DNA from: Terriglobia bacterium
GTDB lineage: Bacteria > Acidobacteriota > Terriglobia > Acidiferrales > UBA7541
DNA length: 64,000 nucleotides
Assembly (NCBI GenBank): GCA_020073375.1
Contig: JAIQFG010000002.1
Coordinates: 1-64,000 of the forward strand
Direction: 5' to 3'
Every line of letters begins with the position of its first letter. Positions within the stretch are counted from its first letter, which is position 1. Position numbers and translations under genes: made by a program. The notes under the pieces were generated by a model that saw nothing but the letters and a program-made list of their open reading frames with translations, was not told where the DNA came from and made no database searches. Shown here one piece after another: positions 3,391-7,067 of this stretch.

Positions 3391-4674
3391 GTGACATCGA
3401 AGAAACGAGTCCTGAGCGGCATGCGCCCCACCGGGCGCCTCCACATCGGCCACTATTTCGGCGCCCTGGAAAACTGGGTCCGGCTGCAGAACGATCCGCA
3501 ATACGAATGCTTTTTCTTCGTCGCCGATTGGCACGCGCTCACCTCGGATTACGCGGACACCTCGCAGGTCGCGCAGAATACCATCGAAATCGCCACCGAC
3601 TGGCTGGCCGCCGGCCTTGACCCGGCAAAATGCACGATGTTCATCCAGTCTTCGGTTCCCGAGCACGCTGAGTTGAATCTCCTGCTCTCGATGGTCACGC
3701 CGCTCGGCTGGCTGGAGCGCGTCCCCACGTACAAGGAAGCGCTCGACAACGTGAAGGACAAGGATTTGCATACGTACGGTTTTCTTGGATACCCGATCTT
3801 ACAGACCTCTGACATTGTTATGTACGGGGAAGTAGGCAGCCCACTCATCGTGCCCGTTGGTGAGGATCAGGTTTCTCACGTCGAACTGAGCAGGGAGATC
3901 GTTCACAGGTTCAACACATATTACGGTCTGGAAATCGATGTCACGAATCTTATGCAGGGCAAAGAGGGCGCCGGATTCGTCAATTTGATAGGCTACGTGC
4001 ACCGAACAAAGCCGGTTGGTGATCCCGACGCAGAAAGCCGATCCGAATTTCGTCGCAACATCCGTGCGGTAGCATTGGAATCCGGGATTTCCAATTTTCT
4101 TCAGAGGATAGACGAATACCGCAAATACTTCTCTTACGAGTTAAAGCTGAGCGAACCTCAGGCTCTTTTGACCAAGGCTCCCCGCATCCCCGGGACCGAC
4201 GGCAGGAAGATGTCCAAGAGCTACGGCAATTTCATTTCGCTCAGCGAATCGGACGAATCGATCCGCACCAAATCGCGTGCGATGATGACCGATCCGGCGC
4301 GCAAGCGCCGCACCGACCCCGGCAATCCCGACGTCTGCCCGGTCTACGACTGGCACAAACTTTTTTCGCCACCGGAAACGCTGCAATGGTCCGCCGAAGG
4401 CTGCCGCAGCGCCGGCATCGGTTGCATCGAATGCAAATCCGCGATGGCCGACAATTTAATCAAGTGGATCGCCCCGGTCCGCGCCCGCCGCGAGGAATAC
4501 GCCTCACATCCCGGCAAGGTCCTGCAAATCATCGACGAAGGCTCGGTCAAGGCCCGCGAAGTCGCGCAAAAAACAATGGCGCGCGTCCGCGAAGCAGTAT
4601 TCAATTGGAAAGACAAGCGCGCGGAAGTCGGACAACAGCAATCCTCCGCGCGAAACGTCAAGGTGGGGGAATAA
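3391..4674 (+). CDS. trpS: Tryptophanyl-tRNA synthetase, [4Fe-4S] type, with an internal insertion
   Basis: Class I synthetase charging tRNA-Trp. HIGH signature at residues 18-21 and KMSKS in DGRKMSKSYGN. The C-terminal region has cysteines spaced C-x21-C-x6-C-x2-C (DVCPV ... EGCRSAGIGCIEC), closely matching the iron-sulfur TrpRS known from Thermotoga. GTG start at 3391 with GGAGA ten bases upstream. At 427 residues it is long: between RFNTYYG and SEPQALLT there are about 70 residues (about 180-250) that ordinary TrpRS lack. DNA from about 3780 to 4160 uses AGG, ATA, CTT, TTA, GTT and TCT codons that are rare in flanking genes, so the block may have been acquired by recombination. All visible catalytic motifs remain. 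Followed one base later by scpA. Confidence 0.93.
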   Translation: MTSKKRVLSGMRPTGRLHIGHYFGALENWVRLQNDPQYECFFFVADWHALTSDYADTSQVAQNTIEIATDWLAAGLDPAKCTMFIQSSVPEHAELNLLLSMVTPLGWLERVPTYKEALDNVKDKDLHTYGFLGYPILQTSDIVMYGEVGSPLIVPVGEDQVSHVELSREIVHRFNTYYGLEIDVTNLMQGKEGAGFVNLIGYVHRTKPVGDPDAESRSEFRRNIRAVALESGISNFLQRIDEYRKYFSYELKLSEPQALLTKAPRIPGTDGRKMSKSYGNFISLSESDESIRTKSRAMMTDPARKRRTDPGNPDVCPVYDWHKLFSPPETLQWSAEGCRSAGIGCIECKSAMADNLIKWIAPVRARREEYASHPGKVLQIIDEGSVKAREVAQKTMARVREAVFNWKDKRAEVGQQQSSARNVKVGE

Positions 4675-4675
4675 A

Positions 4676-5509
4676 ATGGCGTCACCCTACAAAATTCATC
4701 TCGAATCGTACGACGGCCCGCTCGACCTCCTGCTCGATCTGATCAAAAAGCAGGAGATCGACATCCACAACATTCCCATCGCAAAAATCACGGGCCAGTA
4801 TCTCGACTACCTCCACAAGATGGAGCAGATGGATATGGATATCTCGGCCGACTTCATCTACATGGCCGCGACGCTCATCTACATCAAATCGAAAATGCTC
4901 CTGCCGCCCGATCCGCTGGCGAGTCCCGAGGAAATCGAAGACCCGCGCGCCGACCTGGTGCATCGCCTGGTGGAACACGAAAAATTCAAGAGCGCCGCGC
5001 AGCTCCTGCACCAGCGCCAGCAGATCGAGGAAAACGTCTGGTCGAAGCCGGACCGCTCGCTGTACGAGGGCCAGGAAGTGGAGGGCGAGCTGATCGTTTC
5101 GCTGGTGGACCTGGTCAAAGTGTTTCAGCAGGTTCTCGAGCGCCGCAAGGAGATCGTCAAGATCGAGCTGCACCACGACCAGTTCACCGTGGCGCAGATG
5201 ATGGAAATGCTCCGCCAGCAACTGATCGTATCGGAAGAGGGCATCGAGCTGATTTCGTTTTTCGAGTCCTGTGCGTCGCGCCACGCCATGATCGTCGCGT
5301 TGCTGGCCGTGCTCGAACTGGTGCGCCTACAGGCCGTTCTGCTCACGCAAAAGGAATTGTTTTCACAGATTCGTTTGAAGAAACACAAGCTGTTCGACGT
5401 CGTATTCGCGGGCGGAGTTCTGACCGGCGACTCGGACATCGAGCCGCTACACGGAATTGACGATCAATATTCAGCAGGCGGCGCCGTCACGGGCCCGCAA
5501 GGGGAATGA
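4676..5509 (+). CDS. scpA: Segregation and condensation protein A
   Basis: Kleisin subunit that bridges the SMC heads and, with ScpB, forms the bacterial condensin. The N-terminus YKIHLESYDGPLDLLLDLIKKQEIDI is the family hallmark; a mid helical region and C-terminal winged-helix (RHAMIVALLAVLELVRLQ) complete a 277-residue protein of normal size. ATG follows the trpS stop by one base and the stop overlaps the scpB start, so translation is likely coupled. Confidence 0.96.
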   Translation: MASPYKIHLESYDGPLDLLLDLIKKQEIDIHNIPIAKITGQYLDYLHKMEQMDMDISADFIYMAATLIYIKSKMLLPPDPLASPEEIEDPRADLVHRLVEHEKFKSAAQLLHQRQQIEENVWSKPDRSLYEGQEVEGELIVSLVDLVKVFQQVLERRKEIVKIELHHDQFTVAQMMEMLRQQLIVSEEGIELISFFESCASRHAMIVALLAVLELVRLQAVLLTQKELFSQIRLKKHKLFDVVFAGGVLTGDSDIEPLHGIDDQYSAGGAVTGPQGE

Positions 5510-6273
5510 ACATGAATCCATTGGAACTCAAGGGCGCTCTGGAAGCGATCATCTATGCCGCGGACGAACCCGCCACGCTCGACCAGATTGCGAACGCCGT
5601 GGGCGAGGACAAGGCCGTGGTGCGCGGCGCGCTCGACGAAATGATCGCCGGCTACGCGGGCGAAGATCGCGGCATGGAAATTCGAGGCGTTGCCGGAGGC
5701 TACCGCTTTTACACCAAGCCGCAGCATCATGACGTGGTGCGCCGCTTCATCAAGAGCCTGCGCCCGCCGCTGCGCCTGACGATGCCCGCGCTCGAAACCC
5801 TCGCCGTGATTTCCTACCGCCAGCCCGTCACCGGCCCGGAAATCCAGGAAATTCGCGGTGTAAATGTTTCCGGCGTGATCAAAACGTTGCTCGAAAAGCG
5901 CCTCGTCGTGACGGCGGGCCGCAAAGCCGTCATGGGCCGCCCCATCCTGTACCGCACGTCCAAAGAATTCCTGATGCGCTTCGGCCTTTCCGACCTCGAA
6001 GAATTGCCGAGCCTCAAGGAATTTGAGCAGCTCGCGCGCGCCGCACTCGGCTCGGATGAAGGCATCGCCCAGATCGAGCCAGAAGCCGGGTCCGCGGATG
6101 GACCCGCTGTTGAATCGATCCCCGAGCCCGCGGAACCCGTCGCTGCCGCGGAAGTTGCGCCCGCGCCAGAAACGTTCGAGGCCGCGGAATCTCCCGCGCT
6201 GGAAACTCAGGAAGCCGCCGCTTCTCCCTCGGAAACTATTCCAGGCAACGCACTGGCCGAAAGTGCCTCCTAA
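5506..6273 (+). CDS. scpB: Segregation and condensation protein B
   Basis: Dimeric winged-helix partner of ScpA-SMC. Two winged helices occupy about residues 1-165 (ALEAIIYAADEPATLDQIA; TLAVISYRQPVTGPEIQEIRGVN; MGRPILYRTSKEFL). The last 80 residues are an Ala/Pro/Glu-rich disordered tail, longer than in the E. coli-sized family and common in this lineage. Its ATG overlaps the scpA stop by four bases. Confidence 0.96.
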   Translation: MNMNPLELKGALEAIIYAADEPATLDQIANAVGEDKAVVRGALDEMIAGYAGEDRGMEIRGVAGGYRFYTKPQHHDVVRRFIKSLRPPLRLTMPALETLAVISYRQPVTGPEIQEIRGVNVSGVIKTLLEKRLVVTAGRKAVMGRPILYRTSKEFLMRFGLSDLEELPSLKEFEQLARAALGSDEGIAQIEPEAGSADGPAVESIPEPAEPVAAAEVAPAPETFEAAESPALETQEAAASPSETIPGNALAESAS

Positions 6274-6281
6274 AACCAGAC

Positions 6282-7067
6282 ATGCTTGAGCGGCTTCAAA
6301 AAATTATCGCCCGCGCGGGAATCGCCTCGCGCAGGCACGCGGAAGAATTGATCCTCAGCGGACAGGTGCGCGTCAACGGCGCGGTGGTGACTGAACTCGG
6401 CGCGAAGGCCGACCCTGACCACGACCGCATCGAGGCAGCCGGAAAACTCGCGCACGTTTCCGAAGAACACGTCTACCTGCTGCTCAACAAGCCGCCCGGA
6501 ATTGTCGCCACCCTCGCCGATCCCGAAGGCCGCCGCACGCTGCGCAATCTGCTGGTTGGAGTTTCCCAGCGCGTGTTTCCCGTCGGACGCCTCTACTATT
6601 TCGCCAGCGGCGCCGTGTTCCTTACCAACGACGGCGAACTTGCCGGACGGATGTTGAAAGCGTCTCCAATCCTTCCGCAAACTTTTTGGATAAAGGTAAA
6701 GGGCCGCCTCAGCGAGGCGCAAATGAAGACACTCGCGGCCTCGCTTCACGGCAAAGTTTTTCCCTTGCGCGCGCCCCATGCCGCGGGCAAGAATCCCCCG
6801 AATCCCTGGTACGAAGTTCAGCTGGCGGGTGTGCGCCGCGACCTGTTGCGCAAGAATCTACTGGACATGGGGCACCGCGTCGAAAAAATGAGGCGTGTGA
6901 AGCTCGCTTCGCTCGATGTCGACACCGTGCCCGAAGGACATTACCGCCGCCTGGGCCTGGAGGAAGTAGCGAAGCTCTCACGCGCGGTGGATTACGCGCT
7001 CACGCACCAGAAACCCGCGCCGGTTTCTTCCAAGGCGAAAAGCGCCAGGCGCGGACGTCCCAAGTAG
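6282..7067 (+). CDS. RluB/RsuA-family pseudouridine synthase-like protein lacking the catalytic Asp
   Basis: N-terminal S4 RNA-binding domain (about 1-50, RLQKIIARAGIASRRHAEEL) and an RsuA/RluB fold follow in the usual order, including NKPPG at 69-73 and LTNDGELA. The position normally held by the catalytic Asp of GRLD is Tyr105 (FPVGRLYYFASG; codon TAC at 6594-6596). The second active-site motif (E-G-R-N-R-Q-V-R-R in the family) is replaced by AGVRRDLLRK. Fold and RNA binding are likely; pseudouridylation of 23S rRNA is doubtful. It sits eight bases after scpB, the place where rluB is found in many genomes. The C-terminus is short and Lys/Ser-rich. Confidence 0.85.
   Translation: MLERLQKIIARAGIASRRHAEELILSGQVRVNGAVVTELGAKADPDHDRIEAAGKLAHVSEEHVYLLLNKPPGIVATLADPEGRRTLRNLLVGVSQRVFPVGRLYYFASGAVFLTNDGELAGRMLKASPILPQTFWIKVKGRLSEAQMKTLAASLHGKVFPLRAPHAAGKNPPNPWYEVQLAGVRRDLLRKNLLDMGHRVEKMRRVKLASLDVDTVPEGHYRRLGLEEVAKLSRAVDYALTHQKPAPVSSKAKSARRGRPK

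Follow-up and report, generated by a model that had tools for sequence, protein, structure and literature searches.

Pseudouridine synthases share one Asp, described as the sole residue of the superfamily to be both essential and absolutely conserved (PMC7822408); when it is mutated in TruA, TruB, RluA, or RsuA, activity is lost (PMC3919597). In E. coli RluB, the RNA is anchored by Arg17, and the target, U2605 of 23S rRNA, lies within the stem-loop 2587–2607 of the peptidyl transferase center (PMC3919597). This stem-loop belongs to helix 93, not to helix 89/90 as given in the preliminary description of the locus reported here. The Y140F and R108A mutants of RluB retain approximately 3% and 0.6% activity, respectively (PMC3919597). 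RlmB and RlmL, which modify the same 23S region, can help large-subunit assembly without modification (PMC11194073), and TruB and RluD likewise do more than modify RNA (PMC7356742). The assembly effect of E. coli RluC, however, requires its Asp (PMC11194073), so that a role in binding alone does not follow as a matter of course. None of the papers found in a literature search describes a protein such as that examined here.

Architecture and active-site motifs of the RluB-like protein

We analyzed the first 64,000 nucleotides of a contig from a soil acidobacterium of the Terriglobia (JAIQFG010000002.1, hereafter the window), which encode an RluB-like protein (the window protein). The features of the locus are listed in Table 1; the two upstream genes are named scpA and scpB after the preliminary description and our recognition of the sequences.

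Table 1. Coordinates of the RluB-like gene, its motifs, and its neighbors in the window.
Feature	Residues	Position	Strand
scpA, context neighbor		4676..5509	+
scpB, overlaps scpA; immediate upstream neighbor of the RluB-like gene		5506..6273	+
RluB-like protein, S4 and pseudouridine synthase fold, Tyr for catalytic Asp	261 aa	6282..7067	+
S4 RNA-binding domain	3–45	6288..6416	+
Motif II, GRLYYFASG	102–110	6585..6611	+
Motif IIa, QTFWIK	133–138	6678..6695	+
Motif III region, GVRRDLLRKN	183–192	6828..6857	+

Pfam matches (PF01479, S4, 47.7 bits; PF00849, PseudoU_synth_2, 31.9 bits; over the cut-off) and the predicted structure both gave the RsuA/RluB/RluF architecture, an S4 domain followed by the pseudouridine synthase fold. 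The AlphaFold2 model had a pLDDT of 91.4 and matched RNA-bound RluB (4LGT) and ribosome-bound RluB (9CL9) with TM scores of 0.73–0.76; its top PDB matches included RNA-bound RluB, RNA-bound RluF, and RluB on a pre-50S particle. The preliminary description of an intact S4 domain, fold, and scp gene position with no frameshift was correct. The closest solved structures were RluF and RluB. RluF, the 23S pseudouridine(2604) synthase (3DH3), shares fold and domain order and was the best sequence match by E-value; RluB (4LGT, 4LAB, and 9CL9) was 28–30% identical. The scores against the RluB (NF007976) and RluF models were 94.6 and 94.4 bits, both far under the cut-offs; the curated cut-off of the RluB equivalog, 290 bits, is not decisive here, because orthodox acidobacterial copies (145.6 and 167.2 bits) also fall short of it.

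Adjacency to scpB was retained in most relatives with either the variant or the orthodox RluB type. At the loci of genus g4 (e.g., L023, L030, and L179), the variant did not adjoin a recognizable scpB in 11 genomes. Farther upstream, trpS (3391–4674) was a mosaic, in which residues ~150–255 were unlike those of the sister species and both ends were ~95% identical; the congeners also differed among themselves in this segment, which suggests repeated exchange of an internal part of trpS.

The catalytic Asp (RluB Asp110) is replaced in the window protein by Tyr105 (codon TAC, 6594–6596), as had been read from motif II, and the catalytic Tyr of motif IIa (RluB Tyr140) by Phe135. RluF, by contrast, has its catalytic residues. 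Gln133 occupies the position of Lys/Arg138 of RluB, which is Lys or Arg in nearly all orthodox proteins. The base-flipping Arg103, two residues N-terminal of the Asp position, is present and corresponds to RluB Arg108. According to the alignment with the nearest solved structures, Asp187 lies opposite Arg194, the motif III residue named for RluB (PMC3919597), and Arg190 lies opposite Arg197; the EGRNR stretch is gone. Position 187 was Arg, Asn, Gln, or His in orthodox acidobacterial RluB and position 190 was Arg in 41 of 41, so the constant basic residue of motif III is residue 190. Motif III (AGVRRDLLRKN, residues 182–192) is thus changed as reported previously, being rewritten and charge-reversed, but its constant Arg is kept, as it is in all 80 proteins of the variant clade described below. 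Arg17 of the S4 domain, the counterpart of the RluB RNA anchor, was likewise invariant in these 80 proteins.

Changes private to the window species and a second RluB

All five congeners read GRLDY and have Asp at residue 105 and Tyr at residue 135; Tyr105 and Phe135 occur in the window species only. These results indicate that Tyr105 arose on the branch of the window species (GAC to TAC relative to the sister species). A Tyr fixed throughout the lineage is ruled out, and the change is a local one, which the preliminary description had counted against its own reading. Among 158 sites invariant in the congeners, the window protein carries six changes (E46D, S76A, D105Y, A107F, Y135F, and R191K). 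The three active-site motifs account for four of the six (hypergeometric P 0.006; we drew the motif boundaries after the changes were known), and the catalytic set R103/D105/Y135/R190 accounts for two (P 0.007).

Tyr105 differs from Asp by one base and was seen in one genome only, itself assembled from a metagenome, which would fit a sequencing or assembly error. We consider such an error very improbable, and chance likewise unlikely, because three codons of the active-site region differ from those of the congeners: besides D105Y, Y135F (TTT versus TAT) and the private A107F (TTC versus GCN), the last of which requires more than one base change. The remainder of the gene is clean.

The dN/dS value of the gene relative to the sister species (G005) was 0.096, within the range of the neighboring genes (0.06–0.28). 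This value, together with the intact, high-confidence fold, agrees with the earlier statement that the gene is not decaying. The opposing case, that the Asp to Tyr change is recent and was tolerated when another RluB took over, with no function retained, draws on the private and recent nature of all the changes, on the presence of a second RluB, and on the number of replacements on the window branch (22 versus 13 on the sister branch). Such early decay is unlikely; the gene has neither a stop nor a frameshift, and variants with dead motifs in the tandem clade described below persist in many species under selection. Silent changes were also raised on the window branch (48 versus 34), so that faster evolution of the whole gene is a weak and non-specific signal.

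Four PF00849 proteins were found in the window genome: an RluA-type protein (contig C96), an RsuA/RluB-type protein with GRLDKASEG (C22), an RluB-type protein (C35), and the window protein. The C35 protein has the motifs GRLDLNSEG and EGKNREIRK and scored 167 bits against the RluB model, compared with 100 for RluF and 79 for RsuA. The second RluB with GRLD that the preliminary description had proposed to look for is therefore present. No C35-type RluB was found in the five congeners, where only homologues of the C22 and window types were detected, and the nearest relatives of the C35 protein among the genomes compared were only 46% identical and lay outside the family. The genes flanking it were 91% and 88% identical to those of the sister species, where they occur on separate contigs, which indicates that C35 is native to the window genome or genus. 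A contaminant contig is unlikely for the same reason, and the base composition of C35 also fits the window. The C35 RluB gene thus looks acquired, as judged from its sequence relationships. The 23S target of RluB, ACAGTTCGG, was intact within an LSU rRNA of the window genome, which rules out target loss as the cause of the catalytic loss.

A clade of variant RluB-like proteins

Of 61 related genomes, 56 gave a match to the window protein, as did 84 of the 89 genomes belonging to the family (counts that include more distant paralogue matches). In a tree of 110 proteins, all variants of family f1 and of the sister family f3 clustered together (SH-aLRT 98), with every orthodox copy outside the cluster. 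This variant clade comprises 80 proteins from subdivision-2 acidobacteria, to which the window also belongs, and the sister family. Among the variants, residue 105 was Glu (58 proteins), Asp (16), Pro (5), or Tyr (1), whereas all 42 orthodox relatives have Asp; parsimony on the tree gave eight state changes at this residue. Residue 133 was Gln in every variant (Lys or Arg in 41 of 42 orthodox proteins). Residue 187 was Asp or Glu in every variant and never in an orthodox protein. The base-flipping Arg103 was lost in 26 of the 80. The dN/dS values of the variants were mostly 0.01–0.23, and by this measure the variants are under purifying selection.

The motif III change is found in all 80 members, including the 16 with Asp; it is therefore ancient and not in itself proof of inactivity. 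It is also older than Tyr105, so the joint loss of two independent motifs, from which the preliminary description had argued, did not take place. In RluB, motif III makes contact with the major groove of the RNA, and its charge is reversed in the variants (Arg, Asn, Gln, or His to Asp or Glu); helix 93 may for this reason no longer be the ligand.

The clade can also be read as working synthases with an altered active site, in which only the window species, the tandem subclade, and the family with Pro105 are inactive. Residue 105 was acidic in 50 of 50 f1 variants from genomes without a second RluB, which argues that an acid at this position still matters there, and all but two kept Arg103. Furthermore, Arg190 is invariant, Arg103, Asp105, and Tyr135 are all intact in 15 of the 80 variants, and in several genera the variant is the sole protein of the RsuA/RluB family. 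In f1 genomes without a second RluB, Glu105 is mostly accompanied by His107 (GRLEYH), and the two residues are possibly a compensating pair. Against working synthases stand the absolute conservation of the Asp in the superfamily, which the 42 orthodox relatives bear out, and the charge reversal in motif III of all members. We regard this reading as possible, although somewhat short of an even chance.

In G037 (family f2, 99% complete), a genome from the order to which the window also belongs, PF00849 was represented only by an RluA-type protein, and no RsuA/RluB-family member was found.

Proposed retention for RNA binding and the tandem pairs of genus g5

We favor, with a probability of roughly 0.6, the reading that the window protein is a true pseudoenzyme, for which catalysis became dispensable through the acquired RluB and which is retained for a role in binding RNA or in 50S assembly. 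On this reading, the subdivision-2 clade would be losing the catalytic apparatus of its resident RluB-type protein while keeping the protein itself. With the Asp nucleophile replaced by Tyr and the assisting Tyr by Phe, isomerization of uridine by the window protein would be impossible, and Psi2605 would be made instead by the orthodox RluB on C35. The window protein would still be expected to recognize 23S RNA resembling helix 93, or some new RNA, by means of its S4 domain and RNA groove; because Arg17, Arg103, and Arg190 are kept, it could plausibly recognize a stem-loop. Freed from catalysis, it would be retained for binding, and a part in RNA folding or in assembly of the large subunit would be the simplest such role. 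RlmB, the RlmL domain of RlmKL, TruB, and RluD offer a parallel in the suggested binding of pre-50S RNA or RNA folding without chemistry, but these proteins retain their own active sites, whereas that of the window protein was lost naturally. The repurposed RNA-binding protein of the preliminary description is plausible and favored, on evidence other than that first given, namely the repeated loss of the Asp under purifying selection and the co-existence of an orthodox RluB.

For the clade as a whole, we put forward tentatively, at close to even odds, that an order-level group derived from RluB gave up pseudouridine synthesis and became a selectively maintained RNA-binding family, probably acting in 50S assembly, the Asp having been lost separately some nine times or more (roughly counted by hand from the tree), in some cases beside an intact RluB. 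The Tyr105 substitution taken alone is of less interest than this broader picture. In the clade, 64 of the 80 members are without the supposedly universal Asp in a gene under purifying selection, and 24 species have an intact RluB as well. The clade therefore provides a clean natural experiment on whether modification or binding of the ribosome precursor is what matters, and it could show whether Glu is able to stand in for Asp in pseudouridine chemistry.

These 24 species belong to genus g5 and carry a full-length variant together with an orthodox RluB, mostly adjacent and with the orthodox gene downstream. The partnered variants read GNLEY in 23 species and GSLDY in one. Asp105 was thus lost in 23 of 24, and Arg103 was lost in 24 of 24. 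Among the 51 family members that have no orthodox partner of this kind, a set in which the window genome is counted, Arg103 was lost in 2. In regards to known criteria, these variants are doubly disabled, since the R108A mutant of RluB has only 0.6% activity (PMC3919597). Their dN/dS values in four pairs were 0.011, 0.072, 0.042, and 0.176.

The tandem case is a single event, because the species form one clade, and the window species would be the second. The association with a second RluB thus comprises only two evolutionary events, with one independent pair for the tandem clade; these are too few to prove statistically that the loss is made possible by a second RluB. Replacement by a second RluB is also no general rule, because residue 105 is Pro in family f3 although no second RluB is present there. 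Tandem duplication within the family is a possible source of the adjacent orthodox copies of g5, but a single gain in the g5 subclade requires fewer events than ~10 losses (event counts made by hand from the tree), and in the tree these copies grouped with those of other Terriglobia. At two loci, L062 (G031) and L199 (G076), the orthodox RluB was frame-split, by a frameshift or an assembly error, and the adjoining degraded variant was intact.
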